Positions 12,915 to 63,022 of a stretch of DNA of 64,000 nucleotides are shown one piece after another (within the stretch, counting starts at the first letter, position 1; each line of letters begins with the position of its first letter). Where the stretch lies: NCBI GenBank assembly GCA_034509925.1, contig CM067526.1, positions 8,700,244 to 8,764,243 on the forward strand, read 5' to 3'. Source of the stretch: Hirudinaria manillensis. Its lineage: Eukaryota; Annelida; Clitellata; Hirudinida; Hirudinidae. Below the pieces are notes generated by a model. It was not told the DNA's origin. It ran no database searches and saw nothing but the letters and a program-made list of their open reading frames with translations. Position numbers and translations under genes: made by a program.

Positions 12915-15027
12915 ACCGATCAAAATGCAGCAGTTCCACTGAACCAAATTTAAAAATTAATACATCAAACGAATCATGAAACTATCCTCTACAATTTTCG
13001 TCCTTTACATTTTCTTGCAAATCCACCTATTTTGTTCACTATGTCAAAAACGACATGGACCCTTCCGCTTCATGTTGAGTCAACTTCGAACTCGAAAAGC
13101 ATCAGTTCCACCGAATCAAATTTAAAAAATTAATATATCATACGAATCGTGAAGCTATCCTCTACAATTTTCGTCCTTTACATTTTCTTGCAAATCCACC
13201 TATTTTGTTCACGATGCCAAATACGACATGGAGTCGGAAGAAATGACCTAGTTACAAGTTGAGGAAAAATCGCTAGCCGGCGATTATTCTAACTCGAAAA
13301 GCATCAGTTCCACCGAATCAAATTTAAAAAATTAATATATCATACGAATCGTGAAGCTATCCTCTACAATTTTCGTCCTTTACATTTTCTTGCAAATCCA
13401 CCTATTTTGTTCACTATGTCAAAAACGACATGGACCCTTCCGCTTCATGTTGAGTCAACTTCGAACTCGAAAAGCATCAGTTCCACCGAATCAAATTTAA
13501 AAAATTAATATATCATAGGAATCGTGAAGCTATCCTCTACAATTTTCGTCCTTTACATTTTCTTGCAAATCCACCTATTTTGTTCACGATGCCAAATACG
13601 ACATGGAGTCGGAAGAAATGACCTAGTTACAAGTTGAGGAAAAATCGCTAGCCGGCGATTATTCTAACTCGAAAAGCATCAGTTCCACCGAATCAAATTT
13701 AAAAAATTAATATATCATACGAATCGTGAAGCTATCCTCTACAATTTTCGTCCTTTACATTTTCTTGCAAATCCACCTATTTTGTTCACTATGTCAAAAA
13801 CGACATGGACCCTTCCGCTTCATGTTGAGTCAACTTCGAACTCGAAAAGCATCAGTTCCACCGAATCAAATTTAAAAAATTAATATATCATACGAATCGT
13901 GAAGCTATCCTCTACAATTTTCGTCCTTTACATTTTCTTGCAAATCCACCTATTTTGTTCACGATGCCAAATACGACATGGAGTCGGAAGAAATGACCTA
14001 GTTACAAGTTGAGGAAAAATCGCTAGCCGGCGATTATTCTAACTCGAAAAGCATCAGTTCCACCGAATCAAATTTAAAAAATTAATATATCATACGAATC
14101 GTGAAGCTATCCTCTACAATTTTCGTCCTTTACATTTTCTTGCAAATCCACCTATTTTGTTCACTATGTCAAAAACGACATGGACCCTTCCGCTTCATGT
14201 TGAGTCAACTTCGAACTCGAAAAGCATCAGTTCCACCGAATCAAATTTAAAAAATTAATATATCATACGAATCGTGAAGCTATCCTCTACAATTTTCGTC
14301 CTTTACATTTTCTTGCAAATCCACCTATTTTGTTCACGATGCCAAATACGACATGGAGTCGGAAGAAATGACCTAGTTACAAGTTGAGGAAAAATCGCTA
14401 GCCGGCGATTATTCTAACTCGAAAAGCATCAGTTCCACCGAATCAAATTTAAAAAATTAATATATCATACGAATCGTGAAGCTATCCTCTACAATTTTCG
14501 TCCTTTACATTTTCTTGCAAATCCACCTATTTTGTTCACTATGTCAAAAACGACATGGACCCTTCCGCTTCATGTTGAGTCAACTTCGAACTCGAAACGC
14601 AGCAGTTTCACCGAATCAAATTTAAAAATTAATACATCAAACGAATCATGAAACTATCCTCTACAAATTTCGTCTTTTACATTTTCTTGCAAATCCACCT
14701 ATTTTGTTCACGATGCCAAAGACGACATGGACCCTTCCGCTGCGTGTTGAGTCAACTTCGAACTCGAAACGCAGCAGTTCCACTGAACCAAATTTAAAAG
14801 TAAATATATCACAAGAACCATGAAACTATCCTCTACAATTTCTATTTTTTAAAATTTCTTGCAAATCTACCTATTTTGTTCACGACGCCAAAACGACACG
14901 GACCTTTACGCTGCGTGTTGAGTCAACTTCAAACTCAAAGCGCAGCAGTTCTACTGAATCAATTTTAAAAGTAAATATATCCGAATCCACCTATTTTGTT
15001 CACGATGCCAAAAACGACATGGAGTCT
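12915..15027 (+). repeat. Satellite array with a dimeric higher-order unit (173 + 202 bp)
   Basis: The phrase CTCGAAAAGCATCAGTTCCA or a close variant starts at 13091, 13293, 13466, 13668, 13841, 14043, 14216, 14418 and 14591, so spacings alternate 202 and 173 bp (dimer 375 bp). Type A ends with a CTTCCGCTTCATGTTGAG segment, type B with GAAGAAATGACCTAG and GCTAGCCGGCGATTATT. Dimer copies are nearly identical (one difference noticed near 13517). The array edges at ~12915-13090 and 14764-15027 are only ~172-bp A-type monomers and are clearly more diverged. This is the usual pattern of recent homogenisation in the middle with older edges. Confidence 0.95.
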
Positions 15028-53221: not shown

Positions 53222-54078
53222 ACGAATGGAGATTCGCAGATGAAAAGAAAGGAAGAAGATTGCTTATTAGATTTGTTGTTATAAGCTGCAATTTATGTGA
53301 TGTACAGCAAAACATTGTATCCAACATCATCTTCGATTGAGAAACAGATCCGAACAAATCTGGAAATTAAATGTGAAACCGGAGGTCGTGTTGATGCACA
53401 TCTTTTGCGAGACTCACACAGAAATACACTGACCGGTCTCGCGGTGGTCTTATAACCTTCAGCACGAGATGCGGGCGATTATAATGGCGATGAATTTTGA
53501 ATATTTCTTCCTGCTTTGAAAAGATTCCTTCTGCGCTGGCGCCTTGGTCGAATTCGATAAGACCACAAGAGGTGCAGCCTGAAACAAAGATGCTGCAAAT
53601 CATTGCAATGCAGTTCTGCCTCGTGTCAATTTTCACAACTTTTCGCAAAAGGATATAAACGTTCTATTTCTTCTAGACATGTGACGCGCAATGTTTATAA
53701 GTGAGTTGTCTTTGGTGTCCCGGCAGGACTGTAAGATCAATAGCATCCGTAATAGGTCTTGATTCGTACTCACCAAATTACATTTTAGCAAATAACAGAG
53801 GAATATCTACAGGGCAATTCGTCTTGTGGTTGCGGGTGATGGATGCACGCATTGATATGTACTAGCATTGCGAGCCGGCATCATACTCGCATGCAAACGC
53901 TTGAGCCACACGGGCAAGTCGAAGTTTATTCGCTGCTCACTCGTCTTTTCTCAGCAAATCGTTGCGGGACAAAAATTCACCGTGGAGATCGTCTTGCTGA
54001 TGGAATGACGGACATGGATAATTCTGGCCAAGTGGAAGATAACTCGAGTCGACGTACTTTATCAAATTAAATAACATA
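53222..54078. other. Upstream region / probable 5' UTR of the nuclear receptor
   Basis: Less AT-rich than the regions around it. The short open frames here (53367-53648 minus, 53843-54070 plus) lack recognisable domains and I take the area as promoter and leader. Confidence 0.4.
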
Positions 54079-57003
54079 ATGGCTTTAACGGTCCTCGGAA
54101 ATTCGTGGTTAAGTCACTCTAACCTACAGCCCTGTTACCCAACAAACTCCGATGACCCTGCGAACTTTCGCTCCACAACAGAGTTCAAATCTTCATCTTC
54201 ATTCATGGCAACAAACTCTTCCTCAGGTGCAATCACCACGTCTACCCTGATTGGATCCAACGATGAATTTTTGCATCACACTTTGTTTCCTTTCCAGCAG
54301 CATCCTCTTCCGCAACTTTCCGACAGCAACGTTTCTCAGGATCAGTTTGGCCACCACCAGCAGTTTGCATCATTGGAACCAAGACAGCACGAAAATTCCT
54401 TCCAAAGTTCTTCTGCCTTCACGACAATTGGAGACATATCTCACTCTCCTCTCAATAATCCATCCAGAAATAAAGACAAACAACTGGTTACTGATTCAAA
54501 ATGCGCCAAAAATGCTTCATCGACAAATGTGTCATTACAAAAACCGACATCGACGTCAAATATTCGTAAAGATCCCGACTCGACTTCGAGTAAACGTCAA
54601 CAACCGGCTTATGCTTCCTCTACCACGGCTTCCCCTTCCACGACCAATCCCGGAATAATTGCAGATTGTGTCGTTTGCGGAGACAAAAGTTCAGGAAAAC
54701 ATTACGGACAGATCACTTGCGAGGGTTGCAAAAGTTTTTTCAAGAGATCTGTGAGACGTAATCTTACTTATAACTGCAGAGGTAATAAAAACTGCCAAGT
54801 TGATCAGCACCACAGGAACCAATGTCAATATTGTCGTTTGAAGAAGTGTCTCAAAGTTGGTATGCGCAAAGAAGGTTGGTCAAAATGTAATGAGTTTGTG
54901 AGGCATGAATACTATGAATTATGAAGCCATGTAATTAAAAGTCAAAATTTGTAGAAGATTAATTGCTAAATTAATAGCTTTCTAATCAATGTAATTTTTA
55001 ATTAAAAAATTAAAATTGGATTGAGTTTAGAATAAATTCAATCATTCAATTAACACACATATATATATATATGGTCGTAAGTCATACAGGTGATATATAA
55101 GGTTTACTCGTGGAAATCTTTCTAATATATTCTCGCTATAATTTTTGTCAGTTAATTTTATTTAGCTCAAATTTGTCCGAGTTACAAAAATTAAATTGCA
55201 GCTGTTCAAAGAGGTCGTCTTCCATCAGCAAGCTCGCACACAACATCGACATCTCCCGGCTGCTACCCCATGATGTTCGCTCCAACGACCTCAGCTTCTT
55301 CTGCAGCCTCATCTTCCTCATCCAACCTTATGGGTTCCGTCAGTTCTCTAAATCCTAATGAGGTGCCGCAGAGCCATATTGCACACCATCCCAATTATCC
55401 ACCTCATCATTATCCGAGTGGTTTCATATCTATGCTTCTAAGGGCAGAACCCTATGCTACCTCAAGATACGGCCAATGTCCTCAACTGTCCAGCTCGAAT
55501 ATTGCAGGCATTGACAATGTGTGCGAGCTGGCTGCCAGACTCTTGTTCAGTGCCGTAGAATGGGCAAGAAACATTCCATTCTTTCCTGACCTCCAGCCAA
55601 CAGATCAGGTTCAAATGATTTTGTTGACACCATCTGTTTTGTTATTACATTGCATTTAAGCAACAATTAAAATCCTGCTTTCAATTAAAAATGTTTTCGG
55701 TCAACGAGGGTATCTAATCATCTAATAAATCATCTAGTACCTAACTATGTACCTTTTTTAACGACTTAACATGTTATTTTAAATTTTAGCAGCCTCTAAC
55801 ATAAATGCATTTGGTCCCCAAAATAATTCGTATTAAAATGTATGTATGTAGCTGTTATTTATATCATATTTTGTCATTATCACCGAATCATCATCACATA
55901 GTTCAGTGTCATTGTGGAAGATGTTAGATTTATTATTCTATTTCGTCATAAAGGTTCATTTTAAAACAGAATAGCATTTATTTATAAATAACTACCTAAA
56001 TAGAAACCTTTACACGTCAGTCCTTTTTAAAACAATGGAAATGTCAAATTCTGGATTAAAAAAAGGTTCATATGCCATATTTAACTGAAATAACTGAATT
56101 ACGAAATCAGATGCGAATAATTGGTGAGTAATTCTTATGAGCTACGATATCTACAAGCACAATTTCAAAATTTCAAGTAAAAGATTTTATTATATCCCTA
56201 ATTGAATTCGTATTGGTATTCATTTATATTAAGAAACATTTAAAACTTATTTCATTATTTCTGTATTTGCTCAATGCTAGGCCAACCTATTTAATGTTGG
56301 TATTCTTTATGAACTCACTCTTTTAGATGCGATTTTTACTCCACTAGGGTTGTTTGTTATATAATTCATATTTTAAATTTAACTTGATCATAACTTTGAT
56401 ATGTTTTGTTAGGTGTCCTTGTTGAGAGTGAGTTGGAGTGAATTATTCATCTTAAATGCTGCCCACTGCTCTATGCCCTTGCACGTGGCACCCCTATTAG
56501 CAGCTGCCGGGATCCATTCTAGCCCCATGCACGCTGCAGATAGAGTTGTTGCTTTCATGGACAACATTAGGACTTTTCAAGAACATGTCGAAAAATTGAA
56601 AAGCTTGCAAGTTGATTCGGCAGAATACAGCTGTTTGAAAGCAATTGTTCTCTTTAATTCAGGTTTATTTCAATCTAATTAACAGCCACTAGTAACCATT
56701 TGATTAAAAGCGATTGAATCTCGTGCAGAGGCAAGTGGCTTGTCCGATACATCTCACATTGACAACCTGCAAGAACGCTCTCAATGTGCTCTCGAAGAAT
56801 ATGTGAGGTCTCAATATCCAAGCCAACCTACACGCTTCGGAAAACTTCTGCTGAGACTTCCTTCTCTGAGGACCGTATCACCACAGGTCATCGAGCAATT
56901 GTTCTTTGTGAGGCTTGTTGGCAAGACTCCTATTGAAACTTTGATCAAGGATATGCTACTTAGCGGGGGGTCATTTAGCTGGCCTTACATGAATCTACAG
57001 TAA
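54079..57003 (+). CDS. svp: COUP-TF / Seven-up orphan nuclear receptor (NR2F)
   Basis: Exons: 54079-54874, 55202-55608, 56413-56662, 56729-57003; phases agree, 575 residues. Residues 1-193 are a low-complexity Ser/Thr/Gln N-terminus. The two-zinc-finger DNA-binding domain follows ([21 protein letters not shown]-box [28 protein letters not shown]). After a Ser-rich hinge comes the ligand-binding domain ([59 protein letters not shown]), ending in the AF-2 helix region [19 protein letters not shown]. This is almost identical to fly Seven-up and vertebrate COUP-TF over both domains. It is a transcription factor for neuron and photoreceptor fate that binds AGGTCA repeats. The A/B domain is longer than in vertebrate COUP-TFs. 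Start: first ATG of the open frame; an upstream non-coding exon is possible. Confidence 0.97.
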
Positions 57004-61338: not shown

Positions 61339-61342
61339 ATAT

Positions 61343-61631
61343 TGTTGGATCCCTAGAAATTGAATAATCTTTAAAATTATATTGCCGATTAATTAATTTA
61401 ATAATTAATTAAATTTAGTGGCAATATAATTTGAGAATTAAATTGGTGCTATTCAGACTCTTTGGTTATGTACCTTGACAAATGGATTTACCTCGGAAAG
61501 TAGAGCGAGAGTAATAGAAACAGCAGATTTCAAGACTTAATCAATTAAGCATTTTACATCTTCCAAGCCATCTGACAACTTTCAATAAACCTGACCTTCT
61601 ATAATTAGTTTGAGGACCCCGGGTTATTACA
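61343..61631 (+). repeat. 5' LTR (289 bp)
   Basis: Begins TGTTGGATCCCTAG and ends GGGTTATTACA. It contains a near-palindrome of ATTAATTAA units at about 61388-61418 and an AATAAA at about 61590 as a possible poly(A) signal. Confidence 0.95.
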
Positions 61632-61632
61632 T

Positions 61633-61650
61633 TGGTGTCAGGAGTGGGAT
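61633..61650 (+). promoter_or_regulatory. Primer-binding site, tRNA-Leu
   Basis: TGGTGTCAGGAGTGGGAT, one base after the LTR. It is a perfect 18-nt complement to the 3' end of animal tRNA-Leu of the ...ATCCCACTCCTGACA type plus CCA (recalled sequence). Confidence 0.85.
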
Positions 61651-61712
61651 TTAGAGTTAAAGGGTGTCCAAAAGTAACTAAGGTAGAAGCTTGTTTAGTT
61701 GAAAAGTGAAGG

Positions 61713-62750
61713 ATGCCGAAGTACTTGGATGAATTGTACGTGCCTCGATTGAGACAGGAATTGAGAGATCGTGGCCTGGATTGGAAAGGCACGAAAGCTG
61801 AGATACGGGAGCGACTTGGGGCATGGCTGACAGAGAATGGCCATGACCCGGAGGAATACGAATTTGAGAATCCATCCGATAAAAAAAAGGAAGAATTTCG
61901 TGATCTTCTGAGAAAGTGCACAGAGGATTTTAGGGAGTGGAGGAGGAGTATTAGGGGCAATTTGGAAAACACAGCGGTTCCATGTCAGGATGTCTCTTTG
62001 GTTTCTGGTGGAAACTCTACTGAGAAGAGTTCTGATGTTCCAAGTACCGTTTCTGGCAGCATTGGGATGGAGTCATTAGAAGACACACCCGACCACAGTG
62101 CGTGCGTGTCTCCAGAAACTCTGTGCGTGATGGCAGACTTAGAGAACTCGACGTTAGAGCCCATAGAGTTACCAGATCAGGTCGAGTCGTCGGCAGGGCT
62201 CGGGGAGCTCACGGAGGTGTTAGTGGAGCAAGTGGAGCTTTCGGAGGAGCCCGTAGGTTTGCCGGTGGATCATGTGGAGTTATTGGTGCAGCCGGAGGAA
62301 TTACTGATGAGTCACGTGGAGTTGCCGGTGGAGCGCACGGATTTGATGGTGGAACAAGTAGAGTCTACAGAACAGCCCATGGATTTACCAGCGGATGTTT
62401 CGGCTCTATTGGAAATAACAGAAGGGAGTGCTCGGGATTTCAGGAGAGTGCCTAGCATGGAAAGTGGAGCAGGTGATCCTGAGGAGAGTCTGGGATCTGG
62501 CGACATCGTGGAGCAGGAGAGCGTGCATAGAAATGGCGATGTTCCGCGGCTGAAACTTGCGGGACGCAGAAGTAAAAGGGAGGAGACAGAAATCCCAGAA
62601 GATGACAAAGCAAATGGATCTGGGATTTGCAGCCATGAGATTGTTGGAAGATCGGATCCTATTCCGAGAGTAAAAATGAAAATGGGAATAGATGTCTGTT
62701 CGGGACGAACAGATTTAAGGAGGGGGCAGTGTTGGATCCCTAGAAATTGA
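61713..62750 (+). CDS. SAP-domain ORF of the mini-LTR element, 345 residues
   Basis: Residues 4-40 look like a SAP domain (LYVPRLRQELRDRGLDWKG, then TKAEIRERL), a helix-linker-helix fold that binds DNA or RNA and occurs at the N-terminus of some retrotransposon Gag proteins. It is followed by a charged helical stretch (KKKEEFRDLLRKCTEDFREW). Residues ~145-230 are a run of degenerate acidic units such as VEQVEL, PVDHVEL, HVELPVE. The C-terminus is basic (LAGRRSKREETE). No zinc knuckle, protease, RT or integrase is present. The stop lies 21 bases inside the 3' LTR, so the last residues are read from LTR sequence. Intact, consistent with recent or continuing activity. Confidence 0.85.
   Translation: MPKYLDELYVPRLRQELRDRGLDWKGTKAEIRERLGAWLTENGHDPEEYEFENPSDKKKEEFRDLLRKCTEDFREWRRSIRGNLENTAVPCQDVSLVSGGNSTEKSSDVPSTVSGSIGMESLEDTPDHSACVSPETLCVMADLENSTLEPIELPDQVESSAGLGELTEVLVEQVELSEEPVGLPVDHVELLVQPEELLMSHVELPVERTDLMVEQVESTEQPMDLPADVSALLEITEGSARDFRRVPSMESGAGDPEESLGSGDIVEQESVHRNGDVPRLKLAGRRSKREETEIPEDDKANGSGICSHEIVGRSDPIPRVKMKMGIDVCSGRTDLRRGQCWIPRN
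62717..62729 (+). promoter_or_regulatory. Polypurine tract
   Basis: AAGGAGGGGGCAG directly before the 3' LTR: the primer for plus-strand DNA synthesis. It lies within the ORF. Confidence 0.85.
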
Positions 62751-63018
62751 ATAATCTTTAAAATTATATTGCCGATTAATTAATTTAATAATTAATTAAA
62801 TTTAGTGGCAATATAATTTGAGAATTAAATTGGTGCTATTCAGACTCTTTGGTTATGTACCTTGACAAATGGATTTACCTCGGAAAGTAGAGCGAGAGTA
62901 ATAGAAACAGCAGATTTCAAGACTTAATCAATTAAGCATTTTACATCTTCCAAGCCATCTGACAACTTTCAATAAACCTGACCTTCTATAATTAGTTTGA
63001 GGACCCCGGGTTATTACA
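62730..63018 (+). repeat. 3' LTR (289 bp)
   Basis: Same length as the 5' LTR, with no difference found by eye. Confidence 0.95.
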
Positions 63019-63022
63019 ATAT

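Follow-up and report, generated by a model that had tools for sequence, protein, structure and literature searches.

Structure of the element

The window, the whole stretch of 64,000 nucleotides that was analysed, carries a short LTR retrotransposon at positions 61343-63018, hereafter the mini-element. The structure described in the earlier note, a young LTR element with a SAP-domain open reading frame (ORF) and without pol, is borne out at this locus, and its parts are as follows.

61339..61342, no strand: 5' target-site duplication ATAT (read from the sequence; copy comparison)
61343..61631, + strand: 5' LTR, 289 bp, TGTTGG...ATTACA (sequence, LTR alignment, copy comparison)
61633..61652, + strand: primer-binding site TGGTGTCAGGAGTGGGATTT, tRNA-Leu type (also in the gypsy partner copy read)
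61713..62750, + strand: ORF, 345 aa, with its stop at 62748-62750 within the 3' LTR (ORF list)
61731..61817, + strand: SAP domain, residues 7-35, homologous to the partner Gag N-terminus (Pfam, PDB sequence matches, model)
61878..61967, + strand: predicted long helix, residues 56-85, with a coiled-coil-like stretch at the same place in the partner Gag (model)
61986..62372, + strand: acidic region, predicted disordered, residues 92-220 (composition, model, copy alignment)
62696..62712, + strand: hairpin CTGTTCG-GGA-CGAACAG with a 7-bp stem (in the block identical in the gypsy partner)
62717..62729, + strand: polypurine tract AAGGAGGGGGCAG, inside the ORF (read from the sequence; copy comparison)
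62730..63018, + strand: 3' LTR, same sequence as the 5' LTR (LTR alignment)
63019..63022, no strand: 3' target-site duplication ATAT (read from the sequence; copy comparison)

The two LTRs (61343-61631 and 62730-63018) are identical at 289 of 289 bases in pairwise comparison. The element is identified as an LTR retrotransposon by its direct terminal repeats with TG..CA ends, together with primer site, purine tract and target duplication. A single spacer T separates the 5' LTR from the primer site, and the last codons of the ORF and its stop lie inside the 3' LTR, the purine tract being part of the coding sequence. The structure is not a product of chance, since it recurs in 46 two-LTR copies, 44 of them with exact 4-bp target duplications. 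The 345-aa frame is the sole long ORF of the window copy and there is no pol, so that the mini-element is not an autonomous Ty3/gypsy retrotransposon, which would carry gag-pol with reverse transcriptase and integrase.

The primer site had been called perfect, and it is so only against a common animal tRNA-Leu 3' end; it differs at one base, where a G.U pair is possible, from the single tRNA-Leu(CAA)-like gene of this genome (identified by eye) to which the comparison was confined among the isoacceptors. An exact search for GGTTCGAATCCCACTCCTGACA gave no matches. Intron-bearing genes of this tRNA-Leu(CAA)-like kind, identified by eye, form a tandem array with a 246-bp period from C1:4489177 onward (L078); the tRNA 3' end pattern had 321 reverse-strand matches genome-wide, and among the matches listed all lie in this C1 array stretch. 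In bacterial mode, ARAGORN reported tRNAs neither in the window nor in the array unit, and an Rfam search returned no matches. Elsewhere the window contains a tandem repeat array at 12923-14981, with periods of 375 and about 173 bp, and an open frame at 54043-54924 on the + strand with a nuclear-receptor DNA-binding domain that by eye resembles COUP-TF/seven-up.

The encoded protein

The Pfam SAP profile matches residues 7-35 with an E-value of 2.6e-6 and 27.3 bits, above the cut-off of 23.9, and PDB sequence matches to SAP chains were obtained with 1zrj (E 0.001), 2kvu (E 0.007) and, weakly, 2do1. A single-sequence AlphaFold model predicts SAP helices at residues 4-19 and 28-41, followed by a long helix at 56-85 that fades at its end. 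The mean pLDDT is 46.8, with moderate confidence confined to about residues 1-80 and a low, disordered-looking remainder; block means are 77, 83 and 69 over residues 51-80 and then 48 for 81-90. Profile match and two-helix SAP fold together make this a SAP protein. In a Foldseek search with the ORF model, SAP structures rank first at E 1.7, which is not significant.

Residues 92-220 contain 30 aspartates and glutamates and 2 lysines and arginines. Repeat modules differ between copies within this acidic region and just before it, and over residues 54-300 their arrangement is a mosaic from copy to copy, the pattern that template switching between co-packaged RNAs would produce. The flanks of the insertions are 74.7% AT, compared with 65.3% in the window, and a SAP domain at the front of Gag is a possible link to AT-rich chromatin.

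Copies in the genome

At least 126 mini-element loci are present in the genome, 117 from a protein search and 9 more from DNA and LTR searches, in which the best 117 of 909 (protein), 40 of 1220 (DNA) and 40 of 1414 (LTR) candidates were scored. A single-copy artefact, which would have counted against the earlier note, is thereby rejected. In the protein search, 115 of 117 loci have no stop in the matched stretch; such a list may favour intact frames, and the frame statistics were therefore taken from DNA-found, fetched loci alone.

The sample comprised 50 loci, namely 40 from the DNA search (39 plus the window) and 10 others from the LTR search, eight of which were chosen for having no ORF in the protein list, together with L059 and L064. 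Ten further LTR matches, left out of the sample, each have a stop-free open frame in the protein search. Five loci were dropped: L027 and L042 for a damaged 5' LTR, L028 as 5'-truncated, L068 as unreadable to its end and L075 because its second LTR was not found. Among these, L027 has an intact frame, L042 an in-frame stop and L075 a 193-codon frame only, while L068 could not be judged. As L073 yields two copies, 46 two-LTR copies resulted; selection by rank of similarity to the window copy leaves old copies under-represented.

The ORF is intact in 44 of the 46 copies, with lengths of 336-601 aa, and the randomly broken ORFs that would have spoken against the earlier reading do not prevail among the copies sampled. 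Copies without an ORF were considered as a major class and rejected, the eight LTR matches without a listed ORF belonging to the same family where readable. LTR pairs are identical in 38 of 46 copies. In L018, L023 and L071 the LTR pairs differ strongly although the target duplications match, which suggests later gene conversion. In all three older relics examined, the frame is interrupted by stops or shifts. Another young mini-element (L035, C1:8767460-8772460) lies beyond the window end, about 4.7 kb from the window copy on its downstream side, and after it comes an old relic of the family with a shifted frame.

A gypsy family with a SAP-domain Gag

A gypsy family of the same genome, the partner, was read in pieces at the two ends of its Gag-Pol (L042, L076, L077). 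At L042, a mini-element copy has as its neighbour the final part of a gypsy pol ORF, which contains a match to an integrase zinc-binding domain (Integrase_H2C2) and is followed by a purine tract and an LTR. This partner and the mini-element agree at every position of a 32-base internal block and of the first 12 bases of the LTR, with a single differing base between the two. A 53-base pattern spanning the junction, with up to 3 mismatches allowed, occurs at 67 places in the genome, of which one or more belong to mini-elements; the same pattern reversed, as a control, occurs at 0. Among the 40 of these 67 junction sequences that were printed, 38 have the partner's own LTR start, one is a variant and one is of mini-type; no closer autonomous relative with a mini-like LTR was found among them.

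The partner copy at L076 has a 224-bp LTR directly followed by the primer site that the mini-element shares. Its Gag starts with MGPKILDELRVPDLRRELRDRGLD 80 bases behind the LTR, compared with 81 bases for the mini-element ORF, and contains a SAP match of 46.1 bits; 44 of 76 N-terminal residues are identical to the mini-element protein. The SAP domain is followed by a long stretch resembling a coiled coil and, after that, by a segment judged capsid-like by eye, with a PNMA match (E 0.012) below the cut-off. Homology stops near mini-element residue 77; the 500 partner bases read beyond this point, which include the capsid-like part, gave no significant match. In a search with the partner Gag N-terminus, 150 of 573 candidates were scored, many in frames of 1600-1749 codons. 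Towards its end, the mini-element ORF reads the pol 3' tail in another frame, giving VCSGRTDLRRGQCWIPRN where pol ends in PVRDEQI.

In 44 of 46 mini-element copies the same 33 bases precede the 3' LTR; the partner shares 32 of these bases, and this block takes in most of the hairpin. A 23-base piece folds at -6.8 kcal/mol (z -1.95), whereas with longer flanks the hairpin does not stand out from shuffled sequences (mini-element z -0.89, partner z -0.69). Four variants of the primer site occur, in 23, 19, 3 and 1 of the 46 copies. Target duplications follow xTAx in 43 of 44 mini-element copies, ATAT in 20 of them, and the partner target sites, seen on one side each and not as a pair, are CTAT at the 5' side (L076) and ATAT at the 3' side (L042).

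A full-length relative with the LTR, primer site and SAP sequence of the mini-element, as the earlier note envisaged, is found in this family as regards primer site, LTR ends and SAP N-terminus, but not the LTR interior, which is mostly unlike; the LTRs agree at 58% over aligned columns, mainly in the ends and an AT-rich block. Because of the shared LTR termini, primer site, 3' hairpin and purine tract, and the homologous first 77 or so Gag codons, the mini-element is a non-autonomous, gag-derived relative of the SAP-Gag gypsy family and hence a Ty3/gypsy derivative. The suggestion that the SAP-domain ORF derives from Gag is supported, and it is not a normal Gag truncated in the window copy alone. 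The acidic tail stands where the partner has capsid and pol.

Retention of the reading frame

Across the 46 copies, none of 296 substitution events created a stop in the ORF frame, where 8.5 would be expected (P 2e-4); the remaining five frames gained 73 stops in total against 59.6 expected. The antisense frame a2 of the ORF (61713-62750) also has 0 stop gains against 5.2 expected, by chance or antisense constraint, which somewhat weakens the contrast. Indels are multiples of three in 12 of 14 cases in the ORF, compared with 0 of 11 in LTR and leader; the exceptions are two 1-nt changes in one copy each (L015, and L017 by elimination). Several large ORF indels come from differing numbers of a 156-bp unit and cannot count as independent events; with 7 in-frame indel events, Fisher's P is still 5e-4. 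The frame has persisted across cycles of replication, an indication that it is of benefit in cis.

Constraint on the residues themselves is weak and not significant. The 44 intact ORFs hold 229 nonsynonymous and 101 synonymous events, which at a neutral ratio of 2.58 corresponds to an omega of about 0.88 (one-sided P 0.15). The SAP domain has 13 and 9 events in 53 codons (omega 0.56, P 0.13), residues 54-91, where alternative modules were aligned, 43 and 10 (omega 1.52), and the ORF without these residues 142 and 72 (omega 0.78, P 0.054). Mean pairwise pN/pS, a measure that ignores transition bias, is 0.40 for SAP and 0.56 overall, and shared and singleton changes do not differ. Of the dN/dS expectation in the earlier note, a kept frame holds, and for purifying selection on residues the result is not significant, neither the ORF nor the SAP value being significantly below 1. 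An omega near 1 together with a kept frame is evidence for an open frame and not for residue conservation.

These data bear directly on the alternative that translation as such is needed and not the protein, ribosome passage stabilising the RNA or coupling its packaging, so that any long frame would suffice. Translation-coupled stabilisation or packaging has been reported for some defective viral RNAs, and near-neutral residue drift within a kept frame, like the wide length range of intact ORFs, speaks for this alternative. It fits less well with the SAP domain, which varies less per codon than any other part of the ORF and equals the partner Gag at 36 of 53 positions, and we consider it rather unlikely. 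Between the SAP domains of mini-element and Gag, synonymous sites have reached saturation (pS 0.81) at a pN of 0.22, which favours protein over translation alone, and from these sequence comparisons we lean towards a benefit that would come from the SAP-helix protein; part of the similarity may stem from constraint that acted on Gag lineages before there was a mini-element.

A second alternative is that the ORF is a passive Gag remnant, open only since the copies descend, recently, from a small number of intact masters. The many identical LTR pairs, the omega near 1 and the broken frames of the old relics agree with it, yet most of the 296 substitutions should predate insertion, judging from the mostly identical LTR pairs, and none created a stop; the predominance of in-frame ORF indels and the retention of the frame in several diverged lineages also oppose it, making it improbable. 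Capture of a host SAP gene between LTRs, with the protein as a transduced passenger, can draw on an acidic tail for which Pfam, up to E 10, detected no relative (SAP models alone matched), but is very improbable given an N-terminus homologous to the partner Gag at nearly equal distance behind a shared primer site.

Proposed mechanism

The explanation we favour as probable is a gypsy-derived element that is mobilised by its partner and keeps its open frame for a cis-acting mini-Gag or for the translation of it. Mobilisation in trans by the partner family is most likely, dependence on it for reverse transcription and integration following from the shared ends and kind of target site. RNA driven by the LTR would direct the synthesis of a mini-Gag made up of SAP domain, helix and acidic tail, enter particles of the partner family, be primed by tRNA-Leu and be copied by the partner reverse transcriptase, and the partner integrase would insert the cDNA at AT-rich xTAx sites. 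Copies whose RNA cannot be translated through would leave fewer descendants, making the mini-Gag or its translation cis-acting. The most likely role of the SAP-helix module would be to attach the RNA or its cDNA either to the Gag of the partner or to AT-rich chromatin. Against this explanation, both broken-ORF copies have identical LTRs, and transposition with a broken ORF may thus be possible.

We also propose, tentatively, that the mini-element is a retrotransposon parasite in which the nucleic-acid-binding tip of Gag would act as an adaptor in cis, the open frame being selected in each cycle while the acidic tail drifts and swaps modules by template switching. Parent and dependant families with many young copies in one genome form a compact natural system in which the reasons for gene retention by a non-autonomous retroelement can be studied. 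The frame is strictly retained under weak residue constraint, an unusual combination that sets a need for protein apart from a need for translation, and the distinction is directly testable.

Comparison with known systems

In the open-access literature searched, a mini-Gag strategy of this kind in animals was not found, nor anything relevant on SAP domains in Gag. To our knowledge, TRIMs are small LTR elements without coding capacity and have no such ORF. The mini-element resembles them in being small, LTR-flanked, non-autonomous and in an animal, but with its 345-aa ORF and kept frame it is not a TRIM; animal examples, according to excerpts of the reports, are PbTRIM of an ant (PMC3532108) and a TRIM of Echinococcus (PMC4558846). 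The Ty3/gypsy SAP-Gag family of the same genome is like the mini-element in primer site, LTR ends, 3' hairpin and purine tract, SAP Gag N-terminus and, from two one-sided observations, the kind of target site, and unlike it in encoding a capsid-like Gag segment and pol and in its LTR (224 bp at L076), the interior of which is mostly different.

The view of the earlier note that non-autonomous LTR elements usually carry no intact ORF has to be qualified, plant TR-GAG elements and pol-less Athila being precedents in the extracts considered (PMC8704663, PMC2410132). TR-GAGs, as excerpted, are non-autonomous elements with one Gag-derived ORF and an autonomous relative, and are reported to transpose in Arabidopsis ddm1; one of them, AT5TE33540, has a full-length GAG of 562 aa (PMC8704663). 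The mini-element is likewise non-autonomous with a single Gag-derived ORF. It differs from TR-GAG as there described in keeping only SAP and helix of Gag, with no capsid, an acidic repeat tail and an animal host, and it lacks a full-length Gag as judged on the partner Gag read through its capsid-like part.

In pol-less Athila of Arabidopsis, according to the passages considered, whole families keep intact ORFs through replication, with omega for gag and env of about 0.19-0.38 (PMC2410132). The mini-element is similar in lacking pol and keeping its ORF intact through replication. Unlike the residue-level constraint given for Athila in those passages, its omega is about 0.8-0.9 and its signal lies in frame retention. 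Going by these partial accounts, plant TR-GAG and pol-less Athila are the closest known systems, and what sets the mini-element apart is a Gag without capsid.
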